A stretch of DNA of 64,000 nt. Origin: Lunularia cruciata (lineage: Eukaryota > Streptophyta > Marchantiopsida > Lunulariales > Lunulariaceae). The stretch is from positions 50,775,665 to 50,839,664 of the forward strand of contig OX419757.1 of the NCBI GenBank assembly GCA_948567375.1, written 5' to 3'. Every line of letters starts with the position of its first letter. The stretch's first letter is position 1. The notes under the pieces are model-generated. The model was given only the letters and a program-made list of their open reading frames with translations. It was not told where the DNA came from and made no database searches. A program made the translations under genes and the position numbers. This document shows positions 15,221 through 60,562 of this stretch, one piece after another.

Positions 15221-15248
15221 AAGCTTCTCAAGGGCCTTGTATGCTACC

Positions 15249-15360: not shown

Positions 15361-15371
15361 TGGTATCAGAG
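15361..15371 (+). other. primer-binding site (tRNA-iMet type)
   Basis: TGGTATCAGAG follows the 5' LTR by one base. It is complementary to the 3' end of plant initiator tRNA-Met, the usual primer of many plant LTR elements. Confidence 0.85.
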
Positions 15372-20133: not shown

Positions 20134-20558
20134 TGTAACAATATGGAGTTTAGCAACGAAGTTAGTCAGGCTCACGAAGTAGCACATACAACAAATTAGC
20201 CTAGAATATTCCGGAAGTATCTAGGAAGCTTCTTGGGAAGCTTCCCGATTAGCTTAGCTTGCACCTTAAGTAAGTAGCTTCTAGAAGGAAGCTTCTAAAA
20301 GCTTCCAACTAGCTTAGCTTGCACGCCAAGTAGGCAACTTCTAGAAGGAAGCTTCTTAAGAAGCTTCCTAGTTAACTTGGCTTGCACTCTAAAAAAGTGG
20401 CTTGAGGAAGCTTCTTGAGAAGCTTCTCAAGGGCCTTGTATGCTACCTATAAATACCAAAGCCAAAGCTCATGCTAGGCATTTGGAGTTTTCCCTCATTC
20501 AAGTGTCCCAATGTGAGTTTCCATCTCCTATTTCTCTCCTTGGTTTTGGTCTTTTACA
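20134..20558 (+). repeat. 3' LTR of the chromovirus
   Basis: Partner of the LTR at 14935-15359, preceded by a purine-rich tract. The GAA/TTC clusters are kept but some units are changed. Confidence 0.92.
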
Positions 20559-27784: not shown

Positions 27785-28178
27785 CCCCGTTTTACCTTTT
27801 TCGCTCTCCCTTGTACGGCTTGATGGGGTCTTCCAATCCTTCGTGTTTTCTACGCGGGTCGCCCCTTTTTAAGTGTTCACAGCTCGTGTTTAGTCCAATG
27901 CTCACCGGTGGTCATCACTTGGAGGACTGGAAGTGCGGAATTTTTCTCGGGATGAAGAGATGCTTTGCAGTCATTGACTTTCATCATTATTGTACTCCGT
28001 GAAATAGATGACAGCTTACTGTAGCAATTCAGACAACAAAGCTTAGAACATTGGCTTTCAAGTTGCCAACAGTGCAGCTCCAAACATACAAGCAAGAGAA
28101 TCAACACTAGGAACAAGAGAAAAAGGCGACCGCGGAGGAAAAACGAAGGATGGGAAGACCCCATCAAGCACTAGGAAC
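27785..28178. repeat. convergent pair of LINE-tail-like repeats
   Basis: The left arm (about 27785-27865, + strand) carries GCTTGATGGGGTCTTCC and continues through TCGCCCC. The right arm (about 28178-28112) carries the same motif on the - strand. The arms converge on about 250 bp of unrelated sequence. The same motif recurs at 56960, 57540 and 60530, and at 57540 it lies just downstream of a LINE-like reading frame. I therefore read it as a LINE 3' tail. A foldback element is the alternative. Confidence 0.55.
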
Positions 28179-31861: not shown

Positions 31862-31876
31862 ACTGCTGCGGTTGCA
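31745..31876 (+). repeat. 66-bp tandem duplication at the exon 2 boundary
   Basis: Two adjacent 66-bp copies (31745-31810 and 31811-31876) differ at one position. Each contains CTTCTGTACAG, an acceptor-like site, and GGTTAG, the acceptor used in the in-phase gene model. The near identity indicates a recent duplication. Its length is a multiple of three. Confidence 0.95.
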
Positions 31877-33243
31877 ATAGTTTATCCTGTTTGTCGCCTA
31901 GCTCGAAGATGCTCATCCCTTCCTTCTGTCTAACAGAATTTTCAACCTGGCCAAGCGACTGGCAGAGAATGTTGCCGCGGGTTCTTCAGGCGGGAGTTCT
32001 TCAAGAGGACTTCTATTGTGAACGGTCTCATATTCGCACTGATGTATGCCGCATGCAGGGGAATATACTTGTCGAACAGGATGGTACATTTGCTCTTCAC
32101 TCTGTGTATGATACCACTCCACTGAAAACGGAGACCATCAAACCTTACACGAGAAAATGGGAGAAACCATGCATGGACAAGGTTACAGAGGTGAAAATGA
32201 AGAGTATTGCCCATTATTCTCTCGCTATTGGTAATCGAAGCCTACTTTGCGACAAGACGAATTCGCTTCCAGCTGTGGTCTTTTCAACTAGTGGATACAC
32301 TGGCAATCTGTATCATGAATTTCACGACGGGCTAATTCCACTCTACATCACGACGCAGCATCTCAAGGGAGAAGTGCTATTCGTCATCGTCGACTATCAT
32401 TACTGGTGGGTGCAGAAGTATGGGGAAATCATACAGCAGTTAACAAATTATGAGATCATAAACATGGACAACCTTACCGAGTCACAATGCTTCTATGATG
32501 TAACAGCTGGCCTATTTATTCATGAAGAGTTGAGCATCATACCTTCTATCATGCCCAAACAAAGATCTATGCGGGACTTCAGAGCTCTTATTGGTAGAGC
32601 ATACCATGCAAGCATTAGCTGGTCCGCCGAGGACATTGCAACATTCAGACCAGTGCGAAGCAAGCTAAGGGGGCCAGTACCGGAACTAGTAATTATCGTT
32701 CGAGAAGGGAATCGGGTTCTTCTCAACTTAGAAAGCATACTGCAACTAGCTGTGCAGGTTGGATTTAATGTAGTGATACTAAAACCTGATCCTACGACTG
32801 AGTTGAGAAAGATATACTGGGTGTTGAACAGAGCTGATGTGCTGGTGGGTGTACACGGGGCAGCAATGACTCACTTTCTTTTCATGAGACCAGGGACCGT
32901 ATTCATCCAGATTGTTCCGCTTGGTACCGACTGGGCATCATACACCTATTATGGGAAGCCTGCAGAAAAGATGGGTTTGCAGTATCTGGAGTACAAGATA
33001 ACACCTGAGGAGAGCACTTTGAGTAGAAAGTATGAAAAGACTGATCCTGTGCTGACCAGTCCAAATGATGTTGGTAAACATGGTTGGGGCACTATCAAGC
33101 AGATATACCTCACAGAACAGGATGTTGAAATTTCTTTACCACGTTTCCAGGAGACGCTTGAAGATGCTAAGCGAAGGTCAAAGCCCCGGCGAGCTCGTAG
33201 AGATAAATTATCAAACGGTTTTGGCTCGCCCCCGAATTTCTGA
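31862..33243 (+). CDS. GT61 glycosyltransferase, exon 2 (catalytic domain)
   Basis: This is the large open frame with the GT61 (DUF563) fold. Seen in sequence: a Cys-rich lead region, an NLYHEFHDGLIPLY block (about 32305) typical of the family's N-terminal half, REGNRVLLN and LESILQLAVQVGFNVV in the second half, and the signature VGVHGAAMTH (32845-32874) followed by FMRPGTVFIQIVPLG, which matches the C-terminal GT61 hallmark. Plant GT61 enzymes are Golgi xylosyl- or arabinosyltransferases acting on xylan and related glycans, and the same family holds O-mannose/O-GlcNAc enzymes in animals. The exact donor and acceptor cannot be told from sequence. It ends with a basic tail and a TGA at 33241-33243. 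The frame is intact over about 460 codons. The exact 5' edge is uncertain. Confidence 0.85.
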
Positions 33244-39600: not shown

Positions 39601-40323
39601 ACCATTAGTATGAATTTTAGGGAGTTGAATAGATATAACAACAAAAGCCAAGAATTTTACATAACGTTATAAGAAAAGAATAGGATTCCATAAACATCTA
39701 GATCTCCTTCTATATTGTGCTAAGGCAATTCTATTCATATACAATCTAGATGAGATTGTGTGAGTTGTTGATAAGGCAGTATGGATGTGCTAAGGATCTA
39801 GGTAGAAGAATAGGATTTTGTGGTGGTGGTCAGTCATTATAAATAGAAGGAAGGGCCATGGTAGGGAGATTAGACACACATATAACAAAGATGTAAGATC
39901 TTCCATGATGCATATAAAGTCCTCCACTAGTATGTGTAAATTAGGTGACATGGGGATTGAAGAAACTCTGTTGAGATGAACTTTATAATTATGAGAATGT
40001 GCTAGAAAAAATTTGACAATAAGAGCTAGTCCTTGATAGTATATAAGGAATACGGAGAATCACGTATGATAGTTCCTTTAACTCTCCATGCCAAAGAAAA
40101 ACTGAATGCCCATAAGATATTGAAAGTATAATAATACACAAGAATACAATGAATAATATGTAATAAAATTACAATATATTGAACAAAAACTACCAACCCA
40201 AAAAATCAAAAATCAAAAACAAAGAAGTATAAAAAGAAAAAAGAAAAATTTTGAAAATATTATTTCTACAACTAGAAGAGATCACACTTCCTCCAAACAT
40301 AGCCTTACACTTAAATTGAAACT
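36700..40323. repeat. dispersed repeat R, copy 1 (unclassified, decayed)
   Basis: Parts of this stretch align by eye with the end of the window: about 36780-37390 with 62289-62890, and about 37640-38000 with 63100-63170 and 63660-63990. Shared landmarks include ATCAAACTAAT followed by GATGAAG-like text, and TATGCTCACTAA. The family is diverged and has no long open frame or terminal repeat that I can see, so its class is unknown. A decayed LTR element is the likeliest identity. Confidence 0.5.
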
Positions 40324-40764
40324 TGTCACACCATTTGTAGTGTAGCGTCTAGATTGCTCGGACATTGGAGTTCCAATGATAGTAGTTAGAGTTATTTCAG
40401 CAATATCTCAGAGACTACTTTTTGACAGTCAGATTTTGTGTTCGGTGTACTGACTTCACGGTGGGGCCCACCGTCACTTTGCACCGTTTGCACCATCAAG
40501 TGTGCCGTCAGCGGGACCGTTAGGGTTTCAAAGCTAGCTCGAGTCCAAGGGGTATAGTTTCAAAGTGAGCTCTAGAGAGCTCACTTCTTTGATGTTGAGC
40601 CTTCGAGTTCTTGGCTACGGTGGACAGAGGCCGGCGAGCGTCACCTAGATTCTCTATGCTGGAGTGGGTGTGGCTTGACTGTAATCAGTGCCCAGTTGTT
40701 GGCACTTTATAGAGTGACAGATCAAGTATTGATCTGAGTTGAGTTGAGTTGAGAGTGGTAAGCA
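40324..40764 (+). repeat. 5' LTR of the methyltransferase-bearing element
   Basis: Matches 55886-56326 with about 10% difference. The last shared TG...CA-compatible end is at 40764, although similarity continues for about nine bases more. Most differences are transitions. Confidence 0.85.
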
Positions 40765-41586
40765 TTCTAATTACATCAGAGAAGTGAGTCAAGGGGAAAT
40801 TGGGTGCAAGAATTGTGAGTGTTGGTGGTATCTCTAAGCTCGATGGATCATGGTGTCTCGATCAAGTAGTTCAGATTTCCTTGAGAAAGTGTGTGTGCAG
40901 AAGCGCTGGCAAAATTTGGAGCCAGGGGATAAGCAATTTTCAAGCGGTAGCTATGATTTTGAGCTCAGGACCAACTTGTTATGAGTTGAGCTCAAAAACT
41001 GAAATTGAAGGTGGAGTTGGGAGCAGATTCTCATGAATTGAAGATTGTATGAAACCAATTTTTCCAATTTGGCTCGAGTGAAGAGTTAGCTGAGGATTTA
41101 GTGGTCAGTCATTTTTAGGGATTTATGTCAGATTTTATGTCAGATTTACATTCGATTTTATGTCAAATTTTGGCGAAAAGAACTTGAAACTGATCTTTGG
41201 TGATCCTTGTAGCTCAGGAAATAGATATGTACACCAATTATGTCAAATGCCAAATGTTGGCAGAGTCGGTCATGTGTTGATTTATGAGATGGAGTGTTGC
41301 TGTTTAGCATTCATGTGATTTGACCTCCTTCATTCTTTGCTTCCTATTTGTGCACTGTGTTTGTGTGAGGTGCCCTGAATTTTGAGCGTTGGTGCTCTGG
41401 TGTGCTCTCAATAGTGAGGCTAGAGTGATGACCAGTTAGACTATCTTTGTTTCTCTTCGGTGAGGTAGGAAGTGATGACCTATAGACTGTGAGAATGTGT
41501 GTTGTGATGGCAGGTTATAGGTCACCCTTGCCCTTAGTATAGTTGTCTTAGTTATAGTTACATTAGTGGATAGTGTTTTGCTAGTT

Positions 41587-41682
41587 TTGGCACTTGGTGG
41601 TGCTTGGTTGGTATTGGCACTTGGTGGTGCTCGGTTGGTGTTGGCACTTTGTGGTGCTTGGTTAGTGTTGGCACTTGGTGGG
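41587..41682 (+). repeat. 27-bp minisatellite, about 3.5 units
   Basis: Tandem units of 27 bp with the core TTGGCACTTGGTGGTGCT start at 41587, 41614, 41641 and 41668 (partial). They lie in the leader of the outer gypsy element, upstream of gag. The resulting LVLALGG-type peptide repeat is probably a by-product. Confidence 0.85.
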
Positions 41683-42399
41683 ATACTTGTTGTTGCAGTT
41701 TGCGGTTGCGGTTGCAGTTGTGGTTACTTGGTCACAATGGAGTTCTTTGGGGATTCTAGAGGAGTTAGCCCTGCAATACGTAGTGGGTTTACTTGGAGTG
41801 GTGCTTGATATCAGCCTGTATCTCAGGTCCCAGTGAGAGAGGAGATCGACTCTAAGTTGGAGTTCGACACTGGAGCTGATCTACTTGAGAGTGCATTTGG
41901 TGTGTCCGCACAGTTGTTATAGGACATGGACAAGATTATGGGGCCTCCAAAGGCCCTAGATGTTACTCTAGTATAGTGGGTACCATTGAGTTGGATGACT
42001 TCATCCAAGAGTTTGATAGTTGGTGTGATCTGCAGCAGATGTGGAACCCGACTTTTTTTACACCCTTCATGGCATGGAAGGGGTTGTTTCAGCACTTGGA
42101 GGGTCTGCCGATGGACGACTACCATGAGTTCAGGAGAGCTCATTTGGAGGAGATTGAGTTATGGAGACAATATTGGTCTCCAAACTATATCTTTATCACT
42201 TCAGGCTCGGTGGCCAAGAATAGATCGATTGTACCTACGAGTTCTAACTTGAGTAGTGTTGGTAGAGCTAGTGGAGGTGCACTAGCTGGAGATAGTGTTA
42301 CCACGAGTAGAGGTACCGCTGTAGGAGGTGGTGTGGTACCGGGGTTTAACCCCATGGTGGATTTCTTCTTGTGTTTGAGGCAAAACTACCATGGAGTAC

Positions 42400-43090
42400 T
42401 GTAACACCTATTTGTGCATGTGTGTGGTATTGTGATATTTAGCTTGGTATTACAAGTACTTAAGAGATATTATTTATATAGAGATAAAGGATGGTTCTAT
42501 ATTAGTCATGGTTAGCTAAAGTTAGTCATAGCTAAGATAGAGGGGACCTTACTTTAGAGGAAGTAGAAAAGATGAGCACCACTATTTTGGATTTTAGTGT
42601 GTTGACTTGGTATTATTCCTAGGTGTTTGGCTCTGAGGAAAGAGTTGAGAATTCTTGGGCCCGTAAGCCTTTTTGTTTTGGATTCTTCTTTAGTCCAAGA
42701 ATAGCCCATGTGAAGGAATCCTTGACTTAGTGGTTGGGTCAAGATAAGACCACATGCTTAGGGGAATATGCCCATGTGAATGGATATTCCTTTCTCCTTT
42801 TTGACTTTACTTGACTTTTAGTCTAGTAACTTGAGTGAATATGGTAATTAGTAACTTTGTACGTAACTATTTCACAAGTATATAAACAAGGGGCGAGGAG
42901 GTACTCATCATCCTTTCATTTGCAACTATCTCTCTCTCATTGAGTTCTCTAGTGAGCAATGTCTTGAGTCTTGGAGTGTTAGCCTTGGAGGAGTATGATG
43001 GAGTTGGGGTTCCTTGCCTTCTTAGTCCATGGTGCACTACCATAATAGCCATCAGAGGTTCATCCTGAGTGAGAGACAGGCCGGCTCACA
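42400..43090 (+). repeat. 5' LTR of the nested Tat/Ogre-like element
   Basis: 691 bp matching 48320-49008. A TATA-like TATATAAA starts at 42879. Confidence 0.95.
42879..42886 (+). promoter_or_regulatory. TATA-like box of the nested element's 5' LTR
   Basis: TATATAAA lies in the last third of the LTR and is conserved in the 3' LTR at 48799-48806, as expected for the U3/R promoter. Confidence 0.6.
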
Positions 43091-44415
43091 TTTTTGGTTC
43101 CCTTGCCGGGATCTCTCTAGAAGGCAAGATAATGTTCCGTGTTCAATTCTACATTAGGCAAAAGGAGGCTATGAGAGCTCACTTGGAGAGAACATTAGGA
43201 GAGAAGAGGGTTGAACTTATGTTAGAGAACCAAGATCCATTTGTATACCCTGTAGTTCATTATGATGTCTCTAAAGTGATTTATACATCTTGTACACATG
43301 AGAGGAATTGGACAGATTGTGTGAGGTGGATTGCAGATTTTGGGGATTAAGGTGATTTAGGGCAAAATCTCAAGTTTGAGATCTGGACTTGAAATTTCAA
43401 CACATGATAGCTTGGGTTATCTTTCAGTTATCACACTTAAAATTATTGTGAGAGCTACTATGCACACTGGGCTAGAATTTTTGAAAGTTGATAGGGTAAA
43501 GTGCTCCCGCATGCTCTCTGGAAAATTGTATAGAGTCTGCCATTTCTTCAATTTTTAGTGAATTGTCTTGAAAATTTCCAAGAAAATTCAGTTCATTGTA
43601 TCCTACCTGCTGCCACAAAAAATTAGAGAGAGATCGTTCTTGCATATGGAGTTATGAGTTTTTGAAGTGAGGGGGGTGGTTTTCAGACCAAATCTGAAAT
43701 ATGTGTGTTAAATAGAAATGTGTCTAGGCCAAATGGCTGAATGAAAAGATCTGAAATTTTGCAAGGAGGGATGCTCTAGAGTTGTGATCAAGTGTGAAAA
43801 ATTTCAGAGGTGTGACATATTGGTTGGGAGATTTGAGTGACATTGTGAGGAAGGGTCAATTCTACAGAGTGGAGATCTCATGCATGAGGAGTTTGAGATC
43901 AACAAAAAGCATGTTTGAGTGTTTAGATTCATCTTGGGAACATGGAGGGTCATCAAGAGTGGAAATTGAGATTATGCAAGGTTCTCCAAGGGTTTGAGGT
44001 GATTGTAGAGGTGTATTTGAGGAAAAGAGAGTTTACAATAGAATTTGAAGAGAGTGTTGAGAGAATCCAAAAACCTACACCACTTGGAGGAAAGAGTGAG
44101 TCTAAGTGCTTTCTGTGAGGAGAGAAGGGACATAAGGCAAGTTCATGTCCATTGACCTTTGAGAGCAAGAGATTGAGGGAAAAGAGAGGCTTACTTGACT
44201 TGGGTTTGCATGTTGGACCTTCTTCATCAAGATTGGGAAGGAGAAGATCTAAGACCAGGGAGTTGTGTGAGGTTTGTGGAGTTGAAGGACTTCCAAAAGG
44301 ACATGAGTGTAGTGGAGTAATATCACTTTTGGAGACTTTGGTGAAGGATCTTGGAGAGAGTCTTAGTACAGCTATAGAAATACTACCACCTTCATCAGCT
44401 AGTTCTCAAGATTAG
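43091..44415 (+). other. leader of the nested element with extra frames upstream of gag
   Basis: Before gag begins near 44651 the element has broken coding-like stretches: one at about 43069-43350 (RAHLERTLGEKRVELMLENQ) and one at 44152-44415 with a Cys/His cluster (CEVCGVEGLPKGHEC). Just before the latter is a CCHC-knuckle-like text (GEKGHKASSC). Ogre-type elements are known for an additional ORF upstream of gag, so this may be the equivalent, but homology is not shown. Confidence 0.45.
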
Positions 44416-47400
44416 TGATGGAGATAATCTTTCAACTTATGGATAAACTATCCATGAGGGTTCGATTAATATGCACTCTAGGATTTGATGTTGCTATAGA
44501 AATCTTAGAGCAACCTAAACCTTTTGTGTTCCCTAGGGTGGATTACTCTCAAATGGTGTTAGTCATGTATATACTCTATTAGTTATAGAGTGAGAGAAAA
44601 GAAAAGAGAAAAAAAAAATTTGAGAGAAGAGAAAGATAGTGAGAGGTTAAGATGGGAAAACTTCTGGTTTTCTTTGGCAAGGATGGAGAAGATGTGGAGG
44701 CCTTTGTGAGAGACTTCAAAAGAGCTTGCATAGGAAACAATGAGAGGAGGAAGAATGAGTGAGCCTCATTATTACTAGATTTCTTAGAGGATGCAGCACT
44801 TACATGGTATGAGTCGGAATACCAAAAGAGAGAGAGGAGAGATGGGGAAGAGGAGTCTTGGGAGACTTTGACTTCAGCACTCATTGAGAACTTTCTTCTT
44901 GATGAGAGTTATGAGAGATTGATGAGTGAGGTTACATTTCTCAAGCAAGGAGATGGAGAGAAAGTGAAAGTCCATGTGGAAAGAGTGGAAAAGTTAGAGT
45001 CCAGATTTTGCATAGTGTTGAGGAAGTGTAGGGATGATGTGGAGACTACAATGATTGGCATAGGGGCCATGCTCACCAATAATTTTGTGGGAGGGTTGAG
45101 ACCACAAATTAGAAGCAAGGTGAGATATGAGAAACCTTCTTCCAAGGTTGAAGCTATCAAGATCGCAATTCGTATGGAGGAGAGTTTGGAAGGGGATGAG
45201 AGTGATTTGGTGGTGAAGGAGGTTTTGCATCCTCCTCAAGGCTACAAGTATAGTGGAACTTCTGATACTTTGGTGACAAAGGTTGCACCACAAGTAGTAG
45301 TTGCTCCAATTCTTGCAACTCCACCAAAGGATCCACTTCAAACCATCACAGAACAACTTGCGGATCTCAAGATCAATGTGGTGCAACTATGTGAGAAGAG
45401 AGAGGTGGATCAGAATGTAGGGAAATGGCCTAGGAGTTATCGAAACTATCCATATAGAGGAGTTCAACCAGCCAACAATTTCAATGATAGAAATTTTTTT
45501 GGTTGTGGAGGAAGAGGCCATATCCAAAGGAATTGCCCAAATTCCACTTATCATGGAGGAAGGGGTTACGAGAGAGCCAATAGAGGGAAAGAGGGTGGTA
45601 GTGAAATCCAAGTGGCTCCTAATCCAAAAAAAGGTAAGGGGATAGCATCCATAGATGTGGTGGAGAGCAAGTTTGAGAAGGGAGAGTGCTCAAACTCCAA
45701 GAGTCTTAATTTGGAGCTTTTGGCACAAGAGAAGAAGAGAGCTCGTTTTGCAGAAGATGTTCATTCTTCTCAAGGATTTACTCCAAGCAAGGATACTCCT
45801 ATGTCTACTAGGAGCACTTGCACCTCAACACCATCAACAACAAAGACTCCAAGGAAGAAGTTGGGGATGGAGGATTTCTTGATTTCAAAGCAACAATGGA
45901 ACTACAATGTGTTGGAGGATGTTGGTAATCACAAGGCTAACATCACATTGGGCCAATTGATTGCTTTGAACCCTACCTTGAGAAAGGAGCTTAGAGGTGG
46001 TTTGAGTTTTACAAGGAGCAAGAGGAAGAAGAAGGCAAAATTTCCAATATCAATGGGGGTGGTGGATGCCAAGCCAGCACCATGGGAGGCTTGTGAATAT
46101 GCCTCCAAGATTGATGTGAGAGTGAATGGTCACAACATCAAGGATGCATTGGTTGATGGAGGATTAGCAGTGAATGCCATGTTAGAAAGGTTGATGAAGA
46201 ATTTGGGTATGATGCACTCAAGACCTTCAACATTTGTGGTGAGCATGGTAAACAAACAACAAGTTCGACCAGTAGGTGTGATGGATAAAGTGGTAGTTTC
46301 AATTATGGGAGTTCAAAATCTCATGAATTTCCACGTCTTGAAGGATTCAAGCTACGACTTACTTCTTGGAAGGCCATGGTTGAGAGCAGTACGCATAACT
46401 AATAGATGGCACAAAGGGTACTTGAGGATTGGGCCATCAAACCATAGAGTCACAGTTCCTGTGACTAACACCACCAACACTTCACATTCAGATACACCAT
46501 CGTCTAATTATTGGGAATCAGATTCTGAAGAAGGAGCTTCAAGTGTGGACACAAGCATGGAAGAGGAGACTTCCACAGAGGAGGATGAATCTGAATCTGA
46601 TTCAAATGTGTATCCTTTGTATGCTATGGATTTTGCACCTAAGCTAGAGGTTTTGAAGGACCCAAATAAATCACCATTGACACTTGAGGAGATAGAGAGA
46701 AGGTTATCTACCCTCAAGTATGGTCCAAATGTTACGAAGGAGGAGATGGTGAGATTTGAGGAGATTTTCCGCAAGTTCATCCATGTGTTTGCTTTTAGTT
46801 ACAGGGATTTAAAGGAAGTCACCTTGGAGGAGCACAAGATAGAGGTGGAGTCATATGCAAGACCAATCCGCCAAAAGCAACGTCGCATTAGCCCACCAAT
46901 ATCTTTGGTTGTGAAGGAGGAGATTGATAAGCTAAAGGAGGCTGGATTTATCTTTGAGGTAGAGAATTCAGAATGGGTGTCTCCAATTGTCATTGTGAAG
47001 AAAAAGAATGGCAAGCTTTGGGTATGTGTGGATTACAAAAAGCTCAATGTTGTTACGAAGAAGGACTACTACCCATTGCCATTCATTGATGAGATATTGG
47101 AAGAGGTATCCTCCAATGGTGGAGGATATTCTTTTTCACCAAGGAACAGATGGTCTACTTCAAAGAGCAGTGGGTAAGGAAGAGTCTATCCTACTAATAA
47201 AGGAGTTTCATGAAGGTTTAGTTTGTGGAGGACACTTTGCAGGAAAGGTGACCACTTTCAAGATTCTAGATGCAGGTTTACATTGGAGAGGGATTTTCTT
47301 GATTATTGCAAAACTTGTCATGTTTGTCAAGCTTTTACTAGGAAGTCTACATCCACTCCACCACTTAGATCAATTCCATTGCTAGGACCTTTTGAGAAGT

Positions 47401-48319
47401 GGGGGATTGATTTTGTAGGTCCTCTCAATAGAACCCCAAGGAACAATCGGTTCATTGTGGTAGTTATTGATTACCTTACCAAGTGGGTTGAGGCTAGACC
47501 ATTGAGGGACAAGAATGAAGATGAAGTGGGTAGATTTCTTTATGAACGCATTATCACTAGGTTTGGATGCCCTTTGGAGTTGGTTTCTGATAGAGGAAGA
47601 GAGTTTACAGGAAGCATTACTACAATCATGCTATGACATTTCTCTATCACACATAGAGTAACTACATCCTATAAGCCAAATTCCAATGGCTTGGCAGAGA
47701 GAACCAATCAGACCTTGTGCATGATGTTGGCCAAAGTTGCAGAAATGGAGGAGGCTAAACATCATTGGGACAAGAGGATTCATGCAATTTTGTGGGAGTA
47801 TAGGACAACCATGAAGACTTCCATCGGATATTCTCCATTTCAATTGGTGTATGGTATTGAGTCTACCTTACCTATTCACTTTGATCTTCCTACCTTCCAA
47901 AGCATTCATAGGAGATTGAAGAAAGCACAAGGAGGTGATGCAGAGAAGTCAAGGAAGGATCAACTCATGGAGTTGGAAGAGGCAAGAGCAGTTGCTATGG
48001 TTCAAGTGGAGCAACCCAAAGGAAACAAAAGGAGAGCTATGACAAGAGGCAAGGCAAGAAGAAGGTGGAGACTTTCAAAGAAGGTGATTGGGTAATGTTG
48101 TTTGATTCCATTCGATTCAAGAGAGTGCAAAAGAAGTTTTTGCCTAAGTACTTTGGACCTTTCATAGTGGAGAAGGTGTGAGGCAATTACACCTATGATC
48201 TCAAGGAGTTGAGAAGAAGACACTTTGATAGGATTAACCATGATAAGTTGAAGATGTACCATAGAAGGTAGAGAGACTTTCACTTTGAGGACAAAGTGAA
48301 AACTTAGTCCGGGGGTAAA

Positions 48320-49008
48320 TGTAACACATATTTGTGCATGTGTGTGGTATTGTGATATTTAGCTTGGTATTACAAGTACTTAAGAGATATTATTTATATA
48401 GAGATAAAGGATGGTTCTATATTAGTCATGGTTAGCTAAAGTTAGTCATAGCTAAGATAGAGGGGACCTAACTTTAGAGGAAGTAGAAAAGATGAGCACC
48501 ACTATTTTGGATTTTAGTGTGTTGACTTGGTATTATTCCTAGGTGTTTAGCTTTGAGGAAAGAGTTGAGAACTCTTGGGGCCGTAAGCCTTTTTGTTTTG
48601 GATTCTTCTTTAGTCCAAGGATAGCCCATGTGAAGGAATCCTTGACTTAGTAGTTGGGTCAAGATAAGACTACATGCTTAGGGGAATATGCCCATGTGAA
48701 TGGATATTCCTTTCTACTTTTTGACTTTTCTTGAATTTTAGTCTAGTAACTTGAGTGAATATGGTAATTAGTAACTTTGTATGTAACTATTTCACAAGTA
48801 TATAAACAAGGGGTGAGGAGGTACTCATCATCCTTTCATTTGCAACTATCTCTCTCATCAAGTTCTCTAGTGAGCAATGTCTTGAGTCTTGGAGTGTTAG
48901 CCTTGGAGGAGTATGATGGAGTTGGGGTTCCTTGCCTTCTTAGTCCATGGTGCGCTACCATAATAGCCATCAGAGGTTCATCCTAAGTGAGAGACACGCC
49001 GGCTCACA
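48320..49008 (+). repeat. 3' LTR of the nested Tat/Ogre-like element
   Basis: Partner of 42400-43090. The outer element's gag resumes immediately after it, beginning with GTAC. Confidence 0.95.
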
Positions 49009-49620
49009 GTACAGACTGACAAGCTGAGGAGCTTGCAGGAGTTCCAACGGAAGCCTGGAGAGAGCCTATGCGAGGCATACACTCGCGTAGGCTTGATTAG
49101 TTTCACTCAAGGAGTTACTGAGGCCTAGGCAGTCCAATTTTGGTATGGGATACTGGACAGGAAGTTGCAATGTAGAGTTTGTGATGCTATGTTGTTACAG
49201 GCTACTTTGCCTACTTTGGCAGTGGTCTTTGGTTTGGCTGAGCATATTGAGCTTAACATGGTGGAGGAGAGGGTAGTGACATCTGGATTTGGTAGGGAGA
49301 TCTCATCCACGGTTGTGACTTCTTCTAGAGTGCAGCAGAGTGCACCATGCCCGGTTGGTTTTCGAGGATAGGGTGGACAGCCCACATCCTATGGAGCGAG
49401 TGGAGGGCCTAGTGGAGTTAGACCCTTACCTTCATTTGCGGGCAACAGCAGCTAGTGAGTGGTGGTGTTGCTTGTTGGAGTGGTGGACTTGTGGTGGACC
49501 TCACTGTCAAAGAGAGTTTACTCAAGGCAGTGGACCTGATACCTCGGGTGCATCACACCCAGCACAAAGGCAGTGTGAGCATTGCCACAAATTGGGTCAC
49601 ACTAGTGACCGGTGTTTTGA
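49009..49620 (+). pseudogene. gag (second part) and CCHC knuckle of the outer element
   Basis: The text after the nested element reads as a retrotransposon gag region (LRSLQEFQRKPGESLCEAY and QFWYGILDRKLQ), followed by a zinc knuckle of the CX2CX4HX4C form, CEHCHKLGHTSDRC at 49574-49615. Gag packages the element RNA, and the knuckle binds nucleic acid. The first part of this gag lies before 42400. Fossil. Confidence 0.8.
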
Positions 49621-50357
49621 CCTACACCCAGAGTTACGGAGTGGTAGGGCTGCTATGGCAGGTAGTAGAGGAGCTTCAGTTCATGGAAGAGGTGGTGGTA
49701 GAGGATCAACACCTAGTAGGGGTGCAATACTTGCCCTTACTTTTGACACAACTATGGCTACTTGGATTGAGCAGTTGGAGCAAAGATTGACTAGTATGGC
49801 TATTGCTCAGAGGAGATCAGATTTGGGTGTTGAGGCTTCCACCTCATATGCTCGTGATAGAGATGCTTTGGATTTCATGTGCAAAGCAGCACAGGTGGAT
49901 AGCATCTGCAGCATTGACTAGGATTGCAGTACGTGCTTCAGATCCTAGAGGAGCATCAGTGATGTTGGACTTACAGAGAGGAGAGGTTGGGAGATAGGTC
50001 AAACTTCCCCAGTCTTTCACGCTATCTGAGGCATTGCAGACAACATTCATGGTTCCTAGACAACCTAGTGCAGGTGTGGTAGGTGGTGATGGAGTACATG
50101 ATGGACTACCTGCTAGTCAACCACCTACTACTACATAAACTGAGTCTAGCATGATTTTGGGGGCAGCTTAGCTGATTATGTGGCGTCCTTTGTTTTTGGC
50201 CAGTGATATGTTTACATTGGGAGTTGACCCAACCCTAGTGTTCCGGTTGGCTGCCATGCTTTGTGAGAGTATGCGGTTCCTACTACTAGAGCAAAGGTGG
50301 TTGGTAGTGGAGCTGACTTGGTGAGGAGCATGGGATCCGTTTAGTGACCAATGGTTT

Positions 50358-50621
50358 GTGGCAGCAGCAACGGCTAGACTAGAGGAGTTGCCAGCTAGAC
50401 CGACCTTTGAGAGAGCGCGGTTTACACCTGGTGTTGTCCTATTGGATAACCAGAGGGGGATTTTCCATTTGGTGGGACCTTCAAGGAAGGTTTATACACC
50501 ACAGAGAGTCTTGTTAGACTCTGGTGCGCAGCCCCTTATGTTGGGGAAGGCTGTAGTAGTCGGTCTAGAGTTACGGAAGACCGATGTGGAGAGGTGTCTA
50601 TTCAAATCCAGACATCTCTAG
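50358..50621 (+). pseudogene. aspartic protease region of the outer element
   Basis: The stretch includes RVLLDSGAQPLMLGK, with the DSGA active-site triad of retropepsin-like proteases. It lies between gag and the methyltransferase domain, the expected place for the protease. Fossil. Confidence 0.75.
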
Positions 50622-51229
50622 GTGGTGGTTTGACACAGTACATCACACGTGGAGAGCTTGTTTTCCAGGTTCAGCTTGGTCATCCAACTAATAGCTCGGT
50701 GGTGAGAGCTCTGGCTATTGCGACAATAGTTGTGTCATATGATGTGCTAGTTGGGGGAGCAGTGTTATGCCCCATGGGTTTTAGCATCGACTATTGGGAG
50801 GAGACAACCTCTTATAGACATGGTTGGCAGTCTAGCAAGGGACGGATATGTTGCCTACTAGTACGCTTTAGTAGTGGTAGTCTTGGCTCACTATAGTCTT
50901 GGGCTATAGCAGCATCAGTTTTAGCTTTCAATGGTGCAATTACTTGGCCTAGTGACTTGTTGGAGAGGAACGCACATGTAGAGGATAGTCTAGTACCAAA
51001 GGAGATCACTCGGCTTTGGAGTACAAGTGAGATTGTTCCATCCACCTTGGATGTTCCATTGTGGAGTTTAGAGGAGGCATTGCAGCAGCATGCAGATTAG
51101 TTGGTGCAGCAGGCTTGGAGTGGAGCCTTCGTACCATCAAGAGATGAGTGTGAGGATGAGCCTCTAGAGGCGATTTCTTTGACACCTTTGGATACCACAC
51201 TCATTGCTTGGTAGTATCCAGTAGAGGAG

Positions 51230-52155
51230 ATATGTCTATTGGAGTTGTTTGGTGGGATCAGCACCGGACTAGTTGCGGTGTTACAAGCGGATATCCAAGT
51301 ATATGGGTACTTGTATGTAGAGAGAGATGAGACTACTAGGCAAGTCTCTCTACATCATGTGACACACTTGGCCTATTGGTATCCGGAGTTATTACCGATG
51401 TTAGCAGTCAGAGGTTACGAGAAGGCCCTACCAGCAGACATTTCCTTACTTGGGGTGCATGACCTAGAGAGACATGGGCCTATTCATTTGGTGATTTCTG
51501 GATGGCCATGTCAAGGACATACACGTGCGAGTCGTAGTTTGGGTCTTCAAGATCCTTGTTCTGGTGTGTTTTGGGAGATGCTACGGATACTACGACATCT
51601 CCAGGTTCATCAGTCCATTTCTCCAGCTTACCTTTTGGAGAACGTGCCTTTGATGGGTGATTCTCGCATCAAAGTGGTGGCGGGTACACATCAAGTCCAT
51701 GCTTGGATGGGACCTGCTGTATTGTTAGATGCAGCTAGAGTGGGATCACGGGCTCATCATCTTTGTCTTTGGTGGACGAACCTCTTACCCAGAGAGGTTC
51801 TACAACGCACTTATGATGGGATTCAGCGACTTGACCACATCCTTGTAGATGACTTCTTGGATGTTGGACGTCAGTCTCAGACAGTGGTAGTGGTTGATAG
51901 GTCACCTATGGCAGTGATGAACCTAGTTGGACAGCCTAGAACCGCATTTCCCACACTCATGAGTTTCCCAAGCTCTCATGCTTTTTGAGAGGGAGGACCT
52001 GGACTTGTTTGGACCTCACAGTTACAACAATTGGTGGAGCCCAACATTGATGAGAGCAAGCGGGCGATGGGTTTTTGCACCAGTATTACCGTTATTCTAG
52101 CAGTGTTAGAGGCATACAGGTGTTAGGTCAGGCTATGGACCTAAACTGTTTGACC
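51230..52155 (+). pseudogene. cytosine-C5 DNA methyltransferase domain inside the outer gypsy element
   Basis: The frame around 51239-51988 carries the ordered motifs of C5 DNA methyltransferases: motif I LELFGGISTGL (51239-51271, AdoMet binding), motif IV GWPCQGHTRAS with the catalytic Cys at 51509-51511, motif VI LLENVP (about 51632-51649), motif VIII ARVGSRAHHL (about 51734-51763), a motif-IX-like RTAFPTLMSFP (about 51935), and, further on, a motif-X-like LGQAMDLNCLTW (about 52118-52153). Such enzymes methylate cytosine in DNA with AdoMet as donor. It sits between protease and reverse transcriptase. I cannot assign it to MET1, CMT or DRM, and motif spacing suggests a distinct group. The surrounding element is broken, so the domain is treated as a fossil. 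Confidence 0.85.
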
Positions 52156-52689
52156 TGGATCGTGAGCATTGGCTTGGCAGAGCAACATAGGATGCACTTG
52201 ATAGGCATCACCACTTGGATACTTGTGAGCCCTGTGCCTATTGAGACGATTCAGGCACATGTTGGGAGCGATGGACCGAGTGGACATGGTATTCTTGGGA
52301 CACATCCAGTAGCTACTAGGGAGAGTGGTCTACTTGGAGTCCATCCAGGTGAGCGTGAGCTACTTGGATTACACCCTTGGTCCACATGGGATGCAGCTAG
52401 AGGACGTGTGGAGCTTGTAGCCAAAGTGGAGGGAGTTTTTCACACAGAGGTTGGGACCTCTAGTGGTCGGGTGCATGACACTATTGCTCCCAAGGGCCTA
52501 GTGTAGCAGCCAATTAGTACGTATTCCACTCCTATGACAGTTACAAAGGATACTTGGGAGCCAGATCTTGGACCCAAGCTTATTGGAGAGGAAAGACGGA
52601 GGGTTTGGAGGTTCTTGAGGAGTCACACAAGTTGTTTTGCCTTCAATATGAAGGATTTGGATGTTTAGAAGGGACCTAGTATACAGCTT

Positions 52690-53990
52690 GAGATGACTAG
52701 CGATACACCAGTTTTCCGACGTCCTTATCGATATAGTGAGATGGAGAGAACATTGATTCAGAGCCGGAGTAGTGACCTTTTTGAGGCTGGTTTGGTGGAG
52801 ATTTCACATGGAGAGTATGCATCAGCAACAGTGATGCCAACCAAGAAGGATGTGCATGGCAACTACACAGATAGGTGGATGTATGGAGATTACCGTCCTA
52901 TCAACCGACAGACCATGGCTGATAGGTATGTCATGCCTACACTAGAGGAGATTTTTGATGCAATTGGGCATGCAAAAGTCTTCAGTACTTTGGATCTTTG
53001 AGCGGGATATCATCAGTTGCCGATCAGGGAGGAGGATAAGTCCAAGATAACATTCTAGGCCATTGATCCTCACGGCAAGGATGTGTTATATCAGTGGAGG
53101 TTCTTACCATTTGGGTTGAAGAACACTCCTGCTGAGTTCTAGAGGGTCATGGATAGGATCCTAGCTGGATTGGATTTTGCTCGGTGCTATATTGATGACA
53201 TTTTGGTCTATAGTGCTACTGTGGAGGAGCATGAGAGACAATTGTTGGAGGTGTTTGAGAGGTTGAGATCTCATGGACTCAAATTACATCATGGGAAGTG
53301 TAGGTTCTTCCATGAGCAGGTTGAGTATTTGGGTCACACTATCTACCCCGGAGGACTTTGTGTTCAGCAGACCAAGGTGGAGGCTATTGCACATTTCTCG
53401 GCCTACGGATGTGAGCAGAGTGCAAGCATTCCTTGGGTTGGCAAACTTCTATCGCCGCTATGTTAGAGGATTTAGTGCCATTGCCAAGGCCTTGACAAAG
53501 CTGACCAAGCTTACACATGAGTGGTGTTGGAGAGATGAGCAAGAGAGAGCTTTTGTAGAGTTCAAGGAGAGGTTGACATGTGCTCCTATTTTGAGGAGAC
53601 CGATCAGAGGATGACCATTTCAGGTTCATACTGATTGGAGTATGTTGGGGCTTGGAGCGGTGCTCACCCAGCATGATGATGAGGGGAAGGAGTCTGTGGT
53701 GGCCTATGCTAGTCGCTCCAACAATTCAGCGGAGGTGAAGTATAGTTCATATGAGGGAGAGTGCTTGGTAGTAGTTTGGGCAATAGCACATTTCCGATGT
53801 TACCTATTTGGTAACCCCTTCACTCTCATCATTGATCATCAGCCACTGAAGTGGTTGATGGAGTCTGACAAACTTTCACGGAAGCTTGCACGATGGGCTT
53901 TGATTTTATAGGAGTATGATTTCACGGTTGTTCATAGACCTAGAGTGATGAACCGTGAGGCAGATGGGTTGAGTAGAAACCTATGTCCCA
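52690..53990 (+). pseudogene. reverse transcriptase and RNase H of the outer element
   Basis: Reverse transcriptase blocks include a YGDYRPINRQT block, FSTLDL, and CYIDDILVYS with the catalytic DD. RNase H follows with LGLGAVLTQHD, VAYASRSNN and FTLIIDHQPLKWL. The blocks match Ty3/gypsy pol in order and spacing. Fossil, broken. Confidence 0.88.
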
Positions 53991-54359
53991 GCCAGTAGGA
54001 TCAGACCGGAGCACGTTGGCATGGTGAGACAGATGAGGAGATGGTGCCAAGTTGGCATGCATCGGCCTTTTTGTGTATATTTTCAGAGGCTTTGGTGGTA
54101 TCTCTCTCAACGCATATAGGAGGAGTTATTGAGATCACAGATCCAGAGAATGAAGATATTGGTACTTTTCAGTGAGACATTCATGATGATATCTTAGTGA
54201 TGGACTATCTTTGCACTGGTGTTGTAGGTGGCACAGTTGGGACCAAGGAGAGAGACCGTTTTCTTCAACAAGCCAGACGGTTTAGATTGGAGGGCAAACA
54301 CCTTTTGCGTGTATGGGAGGATGGTAGAGTGCGAGTAGTACCACTTCCAGCACAGAGAC

Positions 54360-55130
54360 CACAATTGGTCCGTCACGGTCATGAGGAGCTAGGACATTTT
54401 GGAGTAAAGCATACATATAGCTTACTCCATAGTCATTATTGGTGGCGTGGTATGCAGACCGAGGTACAGTAGTTGTTGCCAGATGTGTGGTTTGTGACCA
54501 AGTTAGAGCATTATTCAATGCTCCTACACCACAGTTACACCCATTACCTATCATGGGATTGGGTTATCATTGGAGTTTGGACTTTGCTAGACCTTTACCA
54601 TTGACTTTGAGACATCATCGGCATGTTTTGGTGGAGCACTTCTCCAAGTGGATTGAGTTGGTGGCACTTCTTGACAAGTCTAGTGAAGGGACAGCTTACT
54701 CATTCCTGGTCGAGTTCTTAGTCATTTTGGTGCACCAGCTGAGGTTTTGACTGATCAAGGTACAGAGCTCTTGGGAGAGTTTCAGGTCTTGTGTGACAAG
54801 GCTTTGATTGATCATCATTCTACATCCCGAGATCACCATGAGGCAGATGGCTTAGCAGAGAGAGTGGTTAAGACGGTGAAGAGAGGATTGCAAAAGTATG
54901 GTTTGTAGAGAGGCCACTTGGGAGATTGGGAACTCCAGTTACCTTGGTTGGCCATGGGCTATCGGTTCAGCCGGCAAGCCTCCTTAGCATCCTTCTCTCC
55001 GTACTTTCTACTCTATGGACAAGATCCAGATTTACCTGCAGCCATTTGTCAAGATGTTATTATAGTTTTGGACTTGGATGACCTCGATGTATGGATGAGC
55101 GCATGTTCTCAACGGGCAGAGATCTTTTGG
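54360..55130 (+). pseudogene. integrase of the outer element
   Basis: The zinc-binding region shows HGHEELGHFGVKHTY and HYWWRGM. The core shows LGYHWSLDFARPL and EHFSKWIEL. A later stretch, FSPYFLLYGQDPDLP, is typical of the end of gypsy integrases. Fossil, broken. Confidence 0.82.
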
Positions 55131-55468
55131 AGAGCGATGCCGATGGCCTTTGAGAACTTGGCGATTGCTCATCATAGAGATACTTTACGCTATGCTACCA
55201 TTCGAGGAGGAGGTTATAAATCCTCAATCGTTGATTTCATCCAGGCGACTATGTATATCTATAGCAGACAACACCAACGACACTTGATGTTTTGACAGGC
55301 CGTACTATCTTGAGAGTGCGTGAGGTTTTGCCATCTGGAGTCCTTGTGTAAGAAGGACGTGATGGTGTTGTTTGGAAGGATCATGTGCACAATTGTGCAC
55401 CATGCCACCTCCCAAACATTGATGGTACTATGGACTCAAGCTTGGCACTTGTACGTGCAGGCTTGAGA

Positions 55469-55603
55469 TGTATGTTATGTGGCTCTTCTGGTGGAGCTGC
55501 TACTATGTTAGTGTGTGAAAGTTGTTCGAGAGGATGGCATATGGCATGTATGACTCCTCTCCTCACGGTGGTTCCTCAGGGACAGTGGTTATGTCCTAGA
55601 TGT
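55469..55603 (+). pseudogene. PHD finger at the 3' end of the outer element
   Basis: A Cys4-His-Cys3 pattern is complete in one frame: CMLC, then CESC, GWHMAC and CPRC, with the conserved Trp two residues before the last pair (QWLCPRC). PHD fingers bind histone H3 tails, often reading Lys4 methylation state. It follows integrase and precedes the 3' LTR, the place occupied by a chromodomain in chromoviruses. A role in choosing integration sites is inference. Confidence 0.85.
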
Positions 55604-55777
55604 ACTTGACCTATAGCTAGTTCATTCTTTGTATACTATAGATTGAAGATAGGCGACTAACGATGGGGCTCCATAGCACCCGGCCTCCTGATCTTTGCCC
55701 ATTATAAGATATACCATATACTTAGAGTATATGGCTATCTAGAGTTAGAGGGACCTAACCGCCAGCTAGGGAGGCAA

Positions 55778-55885
55778 TTGTGGCACTTTAGAGTCTATGT
55801 ATGACTTATGTGCGAGTTGTGCTTCTATAGTGTATGATGTTGACAGCAATGTAAGTTGTGTAGCAATATATATACGCACAACAAC
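55778..55885 (+). repeat. 108-bp segment repeated after the 3' LTR
   Basis: The sequence from TTGTGGCACTTTAGAG up to the 3' LTR start recurs directly after that LTR (about 56336-56445) with roughly 90% identity. The 3' LTR is therefore bracketed by direct repeats far longer than a target duplication. Confidence 0.85.
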
Positions 55886-56326
55886 TGTCACGCCATTTGT
55901 AGTGTCGCGTCTAGATTGCTCAAACACTAGAGTTCCAGTGATAGTAGTTAGAGTTATTTCAGCAGTATCTCAGAGACTACTTTCCTACGGTCAGATTTTG
56001 TGTTCGGGGTACTAACTTCACGGTGGGGCCCACCGTCACTTTACACCATTTGCACCGTTGAGTGTGCCGTCAGCGGGACCATTAGGGTTTCAGAGCTAGC
56101 TTAAGTCCATGGGGTATAGTTTTGAAGTGAGCTCCAGAGAGCTCACTTCTCTGATGTTGAGCCTTCGAGTTCCTGGCTATGGTAGACAGAGGCCGGCAAG
56201 TGTCACCTGGATTCTCTATGCTAGAGTGGGTATGGCTTGACTATAATCAGTGCCTAGTTGTTGGCAGTTTATAGAGTGACAGATCAAGTACTGATCTGAG
56301 TTGAGTTGAGTTGAGAGTGGAAAGCA
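55886..56326 (+). repeat. 3' LTR of the methyltransferase-bearing element
   Basis: Partner of 40324-40764. Similarity continues to about 56335, where the second copy of the 108-bp segment begins. Confidence 0.85.
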
Positions 56327-56335
56327 ATCTGATTA

Positions 56336-56445
56336 TTGTGGCACTTTAGAGTATATATATGACTTTTGTGTGAGTTGTGCTTCTATAGTGTATGATGTTG
56401 ACAGTGATGTATGTTTTGTAGCAATGTATATATGCATGACAAACT
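56336..56445 (+). repeat. second copy of the 108-bp segment
   Basis: Repeats 55778-55885 and runs directly into the left arm of the inverted repeat at 56407-56574. Confidence 0.8.
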
Positions 56446-56574
56446 CAACTTCACATAATGTATATCTCTCAAGACCCCTATCGCCTAATGGGAGTGGCAA
56501 TAGGGGTCTTGAGAGATATACATTATGTGAAGTTGAGTTTGTCGTGCGTATATACATTGCTACACAACATACAT
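56407..56574. repeat. near-perfect inverted repeat, 75-bp arms, 18-base loop
   Basis: The left arm 56407-56481 and right arm 56500-56574 are reverse complements at about 72 of 75 positions. The loop is 18 bases. The outer part of the left arm belongs to the 108-bp segment associated with the gypsy element. A transcript would form a long hairpin resembling a young miRNA or siRNA precursor. Similar open frames read on both strands because of the palindrome. Confidence 0.95.
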
Positions 56575-56828: not shown

Positions 56829-57727
56829 ACAATCTATAGGAGAGCAATCACACTAGGTGATGTTTCTTTTGCTTGTGGACCGTACAACTTGCATAGCTCG
56901 GATATCTTAGGCATGGTAGAGCAGATTTCTCATGTCGATACTCTTGGGGCCTAGCCCCATTTTACCTCTTTTGTCTCTCCCTTGTATAGTTTGATGGGTC
57001 TTCCCATCCTTCTTGTGTTCCACGTGGTCTCCTTTCTCTCTCAATCCTCACAACCACACTGATTGCTTTCCAATTGTTTGCAAATGCACCCATTGGCTAA
57101 TAGCTTGCTAAATCCACCCTTTGAATCCACACATACTAATATTAGCATCTAATTCTTCACATGCTTTGGGCACTATGGATTCTTGTCTTGCACATTACAG
57201 CATTTCATCCCAATCAGATTATCTACATATGTCTAGACATTTGATCAAACTGCTCTATTAAATTGTAGTTTATGATTTTCTATAAGGATAATATGTAAGA
57301 CTTGAGACTTTTCCATTTTGTACATGCTTTTTCTCAAATTTAAGGTCCAAATCCTTATCTGCAAGTGAAGTACACTTACAAATACTTTTGGAAAGCAACC
57401 CATGTTTCAAATTGTTCTTCCTCCCCTCTCCTCTATATGATGTCAATTGCCAACTCAAGCATCATAAGTTTTGTATAATCCGTGCCTCAATAATATTTGA
57501 AGAAGGCGACCACATAGAAAAAATGAAGGATGGGAAGACCGCATCAAGCCGTACAAGGGAGAGACAAAAAAGGTAAACTATGGCTAAGCCACAATAGAGT
57601 CTATATGAGAAATCTGCCCTACCGCACCTAAGATATCCTAGCTATGCAAGTTGTATGCAGTCTACACACAACTGGAGCATCCAAAGAAACATCACCTAAT
57701 GTGATTGCTCTCCTATGGATTGCACCA
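56829..57727. repeat. large inverted repeat of LINE-tail-like sequence (about 210-235-bp arms)
   Basis: The left arm (about 56829-57035, + strand) and right arm (about 57727-57495, - strand) are diverged inverted copies, sharing ATAGGAGAGCAATCAC, TCTCTCCCTTGTA and GGTCTTCCCATCCTTC. About 450 bp of unrelated sequence lies between. The right arm follows directly after the LINE-like frame at 58616-57696 on the - strand, so it looks like that element's 3' untranslated tail. Confidence 0.7.
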
Positions 57728-58639: not shown

Positions 58640-60430
58640 GATAATTGCTGGAGAAGCTCTATTTGTCTCACCATCACCGTTGTTGCCGGCCTGAAGCATA
58701 TTGACTTGATTCACTGATTCTTGTGGTGCATATCACACTCGAAACATATCAATTTGTCTTTCATTTTGTGAAATCATCAAAGAATCACGAGAAGACCCGA
58801 ATCTTGAGAGCTAAAAAATCTTCAACAGGTTAGCTAAACCTGCACACCCTTTCTGTGGTAGTCTTAGAAAACCTTTATGTAGTAGTCCGGAAAAGTCATT
58901 GACCTATTCAACAACTTTAATGGAGATCTCTTAACATTATTTAAAAAAAAACTTCTTATATGTTGTTATATTACTTATACCCTGTCAGATGCAACCATGA
59001 AAAGGTCTCTTTACAATTCAAACGCAACTCTTGTAAAAGATGTTTTTCTCTTTATATCTGACATATTATTATTTCTCAACTTAAATTTTATATATATATG
59101 AATTAAGATATAATGTGATTTAACGTGTGATACTTTATAATAGTCTTTGGTGTGGAAAATGATTCTCAAAGGAATTTATCAAATCTTTCTTTACATTGGT
59201 ATTCATCTATGTATTTAAAATATTAAATCTAGTAAGGGAAAATTATTTTCAAAAAATTCCAAAATATAAATTGGAACAAATTTAGAACTTTATCGGTAGA
59301 GAAGAGGTTCATTCAACCCTAACACCTATTCAAAAACTTCAATATATCTTTACCTACTTCAAATTAAAGTGAAACTGAAATTAAATCAATCATCTAAGCA
59401 TTTAAGTTATCAGCCAAGATATTTGGAAAACTTATATGTGTAAAATGCTTAAATAATATGTCCTATTTATTACTACATCATTAGTGAGAATGTGGATGGT
59501 GCTTCTTCTTACACAACCCTAACAGCCAAAGCTCAAAAGAAGAGAAAATGATACCCAAGTGTTGAATATATTACTGTAATTCTTTATACTAATCATTAAT
59601 TTATTTATTTATTTAGAAGGGCATATTGTGTTTCGCATACTCTCGTTACTCTCGTAATAGTTAACAGGTGATGACACCCTTTGTTATGAAAACACATGCA
59701 AAAGCCCACCCCTATGCAGCTTGTTAGTGTCCATTCAGCTCCCTTATATCACTATACCTTGTTACAATATCATTCGCACGTTCTCGAGTAAACATGAATA
59801 TCAAGTACGTGAATGCCAGTATGTTAGATTTCATAACAAAAAAACCGTTCGAAATTACTTTCTGTTGTTATCATTCAACTTCCGGTGGAACTTACTTCAA
59901 CTCCTCGGAAGGACGACATAAGAGAAATCCATACGAAAATGCGGAAATCCACACGAAAATGTGTTAGTGTTATATATATATTGATGAGACCGGTAGGAAT
60001 CATAAGAAAACGTTCACGTGACAAATCTGATGACAAACCGAAACGTCTGTAGAGATAAAATAGTACACAAGGTTCAAAGAACATTGACATCAGATCAGAT
60101 CAATCTGAATGAAATGATGATAGATTCAGTTGGAATGAATGTTGGGAAGTTGGGGACAGCAGCAGAATCGTTCGAGTTGCGAATTGTGGTGATAGATAGA
60201 AAAGGCAAAGCCCTCAGGCTACAGACCTGGTCCACGTAGTAGCAATGGTAACCATGACGTCGTTCATCGACACGCCATTGCGTTCCGACCAACCAGGTTG
60301 CGCAACTCCTGGCGATGAGTTGCGAGTCCGTGTCAGAAACCACAAGTCGCCAGGAGGAAGACAATCCCATGCTCGTCAAACCCCATCATCATCTTTAAGG
60401 AACGCAATATCCTCAGATGACGTGGACGTA
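58640..60430. other. AT-rich intergenic DNA, no supported gene
   Basis: Short unrelated frames only. Composition becomes less AT-rich from about 60.0 kb, where the flank of the LINE-tail-like repeat at 60472 begins. Confidence 0.45.
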
Positions 60431-60471
60431 TATTAGGTGCGGTGGGGTAGATTTTTCATGTAAACTCTATT

Positions 60472-60562
60472 GGGGCTTAACACTATTTTATCTTTTTCGT
60501 CTCTCCCTTGTACGGCTCAAAGGGTTCTTCCAATCCTTCGGTTTTTCTATCCTGCGGTCGCC
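60472..60562 (+). repeat. single LINE-tail-like repeat
   Basis: Carries CTCTCCCTTGTACGGCT, GGTTCTTCCAATCCTTCGG and GCGGTCGCCC in the same order as the arms at 27785 and 56960. No inverted partner was found nearby. Confidence 0.6.

Follow-up and report, generated by a model that had tools for sequence, protein, structure and literature searches.

DNA methylation silences plant mobile elements, and a retrotransposon that encodes a DNA methyltransferase bears on the question of why an element should carry the tool of its own silencer. In the closest described system, KnitGypsy-Dnmt3 of Klebsormidium nitens, an element of Gypsy type has an unrearranged Dnmt3 within its Pol ORF; the published account describes its terminal repeats as "the same as that of a DIRS retrotransposon" and reports purifying selection on the domain, with Ka/Ks below 0.2 (de Mendoza et al., 2018, PMC5890265). 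The same account covers the dinoflagellate Symbiodinium, thereby substantiating both precedents named in the initial annotation of the locus described here. Streptophyte and dinoflagellate retrotransposon DNMT3 domains are mentioned again, with reference to the 2018 work, in a 2025 paper (PMC12344493). As for host genes, DNMT3 is described as persisting in non-flowering streptophytes, including gymnosperms, and as undetected in flowering plants (PMC6453930). In a screen for extra domains in the LTR elements of 121 angiosperm genomes, 15 passed the filter, and a DNA methyltransferase and a PHD finger are both missing from the nine named in the text (PMC9289625). A land-plant element bearing a DNMT did not appear among the matches listed in the open-licence literature, a scope outside which most subscription journals fall. 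Comparable Pol proteins probably stand in public protein databases without having drawn comment.

The locus analysed here lies in a stretch of 64,000 nucleotides from Lunularia cruciata (contig OX419757.1), referred to as the window. It is very probably a decayed Ty3/gypsy retrotransposon of about 9.5 kb with split repeats and a resident methyltransferase of DNMT3 type in Pol. The element spans 40324-56441 and measures 9505 bases net, once a nested element is subtracted. Its order is A - gag - protease - methyltransferase - reverse transcriptase - RNase H - integrase - PHD - B - A - B, an anatomy in which we have high confidence. The gypsy element recognised in the initial annotation was recovered, and it proved to be larger, extending around the nested insertion and ending Pol with a PHD finger. 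Its features are as follows:

40320-40323, no strand: 5' target-site duplication AACT, equal to 56442-56445
40324-40773, plus strand: terminal repeat A1, 450 nt, beginning with TG, 90.4% identical without gaps to 55886-56335
41889-42399, plus strand: 5' part of gag, open for 170 codons, assigned to gag from its position and from inspection by eye
42400-49008, plus strand: nested younger Ty3/gypsy element inside gag, separate from the methyltransferase element, identified by its LTRs and duplication
49013-49918, plus strand: remainder of gag, with a CCHC zinc knuckle at 49574-49615, translation read by eye
50325-50896, plus strand: protease region in two frames, with DSG at 50517-50525, motif by eye
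about 51227-52191, plus strand: C5-methyltransferase domain, probably DNMT3-type (PF00145, DNMT3A in PDB, PHROG 116 and frame analysis; motifs IX and X by eye)
52669-53463, plus strand: reverse transcriptase, with YIDD at 53188-53199 (RVT_1, E 3.6e-14 on 53143-53463)
53615-53908, plus strand: RNase H (RT_RNaseH, E 2.6e-34)
54176-55295, plus strand: DDE-type integrase (Integrase_H2C2, E 1.4e-10 at 54350-54469; core by eye)
55469-55603, plus strand: C-terminal PHD finger of Pol (PF00628, E 7.5e-11; eight zinc ligands by eye)
55778-55885, plus strand: repeat B1, 108 nt; a purine-rich stretch lies before it, and the B2 region matches it at 89% identity
55886-56335, plus strand: repeat A2, 450 nt, adjoining B1 at the junction CA-AC-TG
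56336-56441, plus strand: repeat B2, ending with CA, found by self-comparison
56442-56445, no strand: 3' target-site duplication AACT, equal to 40320-40323

The split direct repeats (A - coding - B - A - B) emerged from self-comparison of the window. At the junction of B1 and A2, two extra bases separate the end dinucleotides, suggesting a joined-ends form that would be trimmed by the integrase. Two random 4-mers drawn from the window agree by chance with a frequency of 0.005. The right border is arguable, since AACT occurs again at 56447, five bases on; only the copy at 56442 directly follows CA. An inverted duplication at 56407-56574 (arms of 79 nt, 95% identical, 10 nt apart) overlaps the 3' end of the element and copies the last part of B2 together with the flank immediately beyond. 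Because it includes this flank, it is probably later than the insertion. The overlap, and the fact that a single copy is at hand, would suit an accidental origin of the split repeat, namely an ordinary LTR element whose 5' LTR was truncated and whose 3' LTR was partly duplicated. Nevertheless, A1 has exactly the starting point, at TG, that A2 has behind B1, the unit closes with CA and has AACT at both sides, and DIRS-like repeats are likewise described for KnitGypsy-Dnmt3 (PMC5890265), all of which makes such an accident very unlikely.

The nested element carries LTRs at 42400-43090 and 48320-49008 that are 97% identical, and it is flanked by the duplication GTAC or AGTAC. With this element removed and its flanks brought together, the gag frame runs across the seam and meets a TAG 38 codons further on. 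Since the gag frame reads across the empty site, the outer element must begin further upstream.

Among the domains of the outer element, the order reverse transcriptase - RNase H - integrase recognised by Pfam is the one that defines Ty3/gypsy elements. No match to a tyrosine recombinase, the mark of DIRS elements, was found in the pieces searched against Pfam, from which some broken stretches were left out, and an H2C2 integrase is present. Frame changes disrupt the integrase core, for which the rve model reaches only E 0.13 on a fragment. Pfam returned no match for the 5' part of gag (41889-42399), for the gag piece 49319-49918, for the protease in the pieces run, or for the piece 52669-52998 of the reverse transcriptase. 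In the best 60 of 103 PDB matches, the PHD finger is related to those of chromatin proteins, with a top E of 2.6e-14. An ADD-like reading of this finger was considered and dropped, as it matches ordinary PHD fingers in both PF00628 and PDB. No report of a gypsy Pol-terminal PHD finger like this one was found among the matches listed in the open-licence literature.

The C5-methyltransferase stretch proposed in the initial annotation was confirmed by three kinds of match to the ORF at 51215-51985 on the plus strand. PF00145, the profile recommended there for checking, matched residues 90-149 with E 2.5e-5 and 24.3 bits, exceeding the gathering score of 22. PHROG 116 (DNA methyltransferase) matched residues 3-145 with E 9.9e-10, and DNMT3A was the best solved-structure match in PDB, with E 3.7e-6. 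PADLOC type II models matched as well (best E 7.9e-7), as did NCBIfam dcm (E 1.7e-5), the latter with only 24.7 bits where the cut-off is 100.65. No other methyltransferase was found in the window by tblastn, the next-best match having E 1.5. A single-sequence AlphaFold2 model of the 257-aa ORF had a mean pLDDT of 30.7 and was set aside. The domain had been placed at 51230-52155; its presence there was upheld and its extent corrected to about 51227-52191. The motifs read by eye along it, named as is usual for C5-methyltransferases, are these:

51245-51271, plus strand: motif I, LFGGISTGL
51506-51514, plus strand: PCQ of motif IV, GWPCQG
51638-51646, plus strand: motif VI, ENV
51743-51790, plus strand: VIII-like motif GSRAHHLCLWWTNLLP
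52052-52075, plus strand: IX-like motif ESKRAMGF, in an unchanged frame but beyond the TGA at 51986
52120-52191, plus strand: X-like motif VLGQAMDLNCLTW.., with one frame change before it

The order I, IV, VI, VIII, followed by the IX-like and X-like motifs, is unrearranged, and the catalytic PC and ENV are present. Of the ordered motifs claimed in the initial annotation, I, IV, VI and VIII were found; IX and X are candidates read by eye across one stop and one frame change, without profile support, the piece 52054-52503 giving no Pfam match.

As to the class of this methyltransferase, DNMT3A, DNMT3B and DNMT3C account for 29 of the 37 distinct PDB sequences that match the ORF at E up to 1, divided into 16 DNMT3A (best 3.7e-6) and 13 DNMT3B or 3C. 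The remainder comprises four DRM2 sequences (0.14), 4onj, named 'DNA methyltransferase' (0.2), HaeIII (0.23), and two other proteins. The alignment with DNMT3A spans motif I to motif VIII (residues 7-191) and includes the W-x-N-L stretch; the arginines of the DNMT3A AHRAR stretch face other residues in the element copy, and the catalytic motif reads PCQ in the element against PCN in DNMT3A. No companion ADD, PWWP or DUF3444 domain was matched in the pieces run against Pfam. A DRM origin was dropped, since DRM has a circularly permuted motif order and the order here is not permuted. A derivation from a C5-methyltransferase of bacteria, phages or viruses instead of a eukaryotic DNMT3 would account for the PCQ, for the matches to PADLOC type II models, and for the PHROG 116 phage methyltransferase profile outscoring every solved DNMT3 sequence. 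We consider such a source improbable: DNMT3 dominates the PDB matches, whereas HaeIII, the sole match named as a modification methylase, appears at only E 0.23, and the PHROG 116 and Pfam matches stop at residues 145-149, whereas that to DNMT3A continues through motif VIII to 191. This last argument is not a clean one, as two PADLOC 'orphan methyltransferase' models likewise run past motif VIII, to residues 191 and 197 (1.8e-6 and 4.2e-4, respectively). Short of proof, a DNMT3-type enzyme is the best reading of the sequence matches.

That the methyltransferase belongs to the gypsy element, as initially annotated, is indicated both by the profile match and by the reading frames that it has in common with its flanks. 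From 50625 to 51985, a span of 453 codons, the frame of the protease tail (identified by eye) and of the methyltransferase contains three stops, whereas the two remaining frames contain 27 and 28. Downstream, between 52054 and 53000, two stops interrupt the frame shared by motif X and the beginning of the reverse transcriptase, against 23 and 17 in the others; counted up to 53460, the shared frame has five. Altogether, nine in-frame stops occur between 50625 and 53143, including the TGA at 51986; seven are TAG and two TGA. Because the frames are common on both sides, the methyltransferase is continuous with the protease upstream and the reverse transcriptase downstream. Its predicted position between the two also held, with DSG, methyltransferase, RVT_1, RNase H and H2C2 following one another in order.

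Thus, the sequence supports a methyltransferase that is a resident Pol domain. The evidence comes from one copy alone, and the DNMT3 genes of non-flowering plants (PMC6453930) are possible donors, so the domain could in principle be a fragment of a host DNMT3 gene captured by this single copy and never part of a family. Such a capture is most unlikely, given that the domain is in frame with Pol at both sides, that stops are spread alike over the methyltransferase and its neighbours, and that a closely similar plan has been published for Klebsormidium (PMC5890265). Searches for relatives of the methyltransferase gave 45 pattern matches in viral contigs and 20 in prokaryotic or viral genome contigs, with none confirmed in either; for the reverse transcriptase piece 52669-52998, the corresponding figures were nine and 36, again with none confirmed. 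These collections are viral or prokaryotic and therefore say little about plants.

The copy is a fossil, as had been stated initially, with stops and frame changes in Pol. Repeats A1 and A2 differ at 43 of 450 positions, without gaps, and 36 of these differences are transitions. When both strands and both copies are taken in, the transitions fall at 11 of 54 CG, 14 of 82 CHG and 11 of 283 CHH sites. Plants methylate both CG and CHG, and the decay of methylated cytosine concentrates change there; the concentration of A1/A2 change at CG and CHG looks like this kind of decay. The observed/expected CpG ratio is 0.37-0.43 in the methyltransferase element, 0.40 in the whole window, and 0.14 in the nested element, where the CWG ratio of 0.40 is strongly depleted like its CpG. 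Compared with the window, the methyltransferase element has no extra CpG or CWG depletion, and hence no composition footprint of self-methylation. Self-methylation therefore loses composition as a support, which speaks neither for nor against it.

Concerning the role of the domain, Pol of an active element would carry the methyltransferase together with the reverse transcriptase into the particle. Its own new cDNA, or a freshly integrated copy, would then most likely be methylated at CG sites, and this methylation might damp or disguise the copy, sparing the host some harm during the spread of new copies. The PHD finger that ends Pol might read histone H3 tails and so steer integration, in place of the chromodomain of chromoviruses. 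Because the methyltransferase is fused to the reverse transcriptase, methylation of cDNA or new insertions would be its likeliest task. We put the self-methylation step forward tentatively, as something that may or may not have happened, with its chances somewhat short of even. In the yeast assays published for the two known systems, CG is methylated by the Dnmt3 domains of Symbiodinium retrotransposons, and the Klebsormidium domain produced no methylation, a result that its authors deem inconclusive (PMC5890265). This inactivity, inconclusive as it is, and the missing composition footprint agree with the domain having been kept for a task other than DNA methylation, such as cDNA binding or RNA methylation; the presence of both PCQ and ENV and the activity of the Symbiodinium domains argue against it, and we regard such a task as unlikely, though deserving some weight.

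Several further features of the window were recorded. A chromovirus-like gypsy element at 14935-20559 has terminal repeats that are 96% identical, an integrase tail matching Tf2-1 SH3 (1.3e-19), and a chromodomain-like stretch near 19972, read by eye. Our guess is that it is Tcn1-like, although the Tf2-1 SH3 model may match other plant clades. A published survey confines the Tcn1 clade, related to Tf1/Sushi, to mosses and club-mosses, and it reports that algae yielded no gypsy elements other than chromoviruses (PMC6317226). An ORF of 475 codons at 31816-33243 matches glycosyltransferase 61 in Pfam (E 2.3e-10); its PDB matches at E up to 0.1 are exclusively POMGNT2 (seven) and EOGT (one) chains, a set uninformative on the host lineage. 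We take this gene to be plant-like. The gene, the decay in CHG context and the chromovirus-like element are signs of a streptophyte host; on these signs, a seed-free land plant is the best guess, at somewhat better than even chances. Close to it, the 69-base stretch 31743-31811 is directly repeated at 31809-31877. Repeats of about 1 kb occur at 3695-6156 and 12258-13492, two of them mutually inverted (85%) and a third copy at 73-74%. A small inverted-repeat family with several copies (56830-57722, 60429-60562 and 27785-27863) is perhaps a short non-autonomous DNA element. Rfam gave no match in the whole window at gathering scores.

With respect to its meaning, the published cases found are those of an alga and of dinoflagellates (PMC5890265). 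A land-plant case would show the association of methyltransferase and retrotransposon to be older or more mobile than thought, and would bring it into lineages whose methylation mutants and methylomes are open to study. The split repeats, together with the 4-bp duplication, also raise a testable question, namely how the ends for a DDE integrase are made. More speculatively, and with greater reserve than for self-methylation, the locus could stand for a land-plant gypsy family whose single polyprotein unites two epigenetic tools, a writer of DNMT3 type next to the reverse transcriptase and a PHD-finger reader on the integrase. In this family, split direct repeats and a DDE integrase would combine DIRS-like replication with gypsy-like integration, and its inheritance or exchange among streptophytes would predate land plants.

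Comparison with known systems defines what is particular to the element. As in plant chromoviruses, its gypsy Pol ends with a domain that reads chromatin, but this is a PHD finger instead of a chromodomain, and the methyltransferase and the split repeats set the element further apart. With animal and plant DNMT3, its domain has in common the motif order, DNMT3A being the best match among solved structures, whereas it differs from them in being in one frame with a reverse transcriptase and in having PCQ at the catalytic motif. SymbioDIRS-Dnmt3 of Symbiodinium carries a Dnmt3 in a retrotransposon Pol, as the present element probably does, and likewise has repeats in the order A - coding - B - A - B; however, it is described as a DIRS element with a tyrosine recombinase (PMC5890265), whereas the element presented here has a DDE-type integrase with H2C2 and a 4-bp duplication. 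The strongest resemblance is to KnitGypsy-Dnmt3, which, compared by its published description, likewise has an unrearranged methyltransferase domain in a Gypsy Pol ORF, a Dnmt3 there and probably of Dnmt3 type here, and DIRS-like terminal repeats with a Gypsy domain composition. The differences are that the present element is a decayed single copy, that it resides in a different host, and that a PHD finger ends its Pol, the term 'PHD' being absent from the main text on the Klebsormidium element (PMC5890265). Since two unusual features occur together, the likeness between both elements exceeds a common domain, and the locus is probably a decayed further representative of the published gypsy elements with Dnmt3 in Pol, extending them to land plants.
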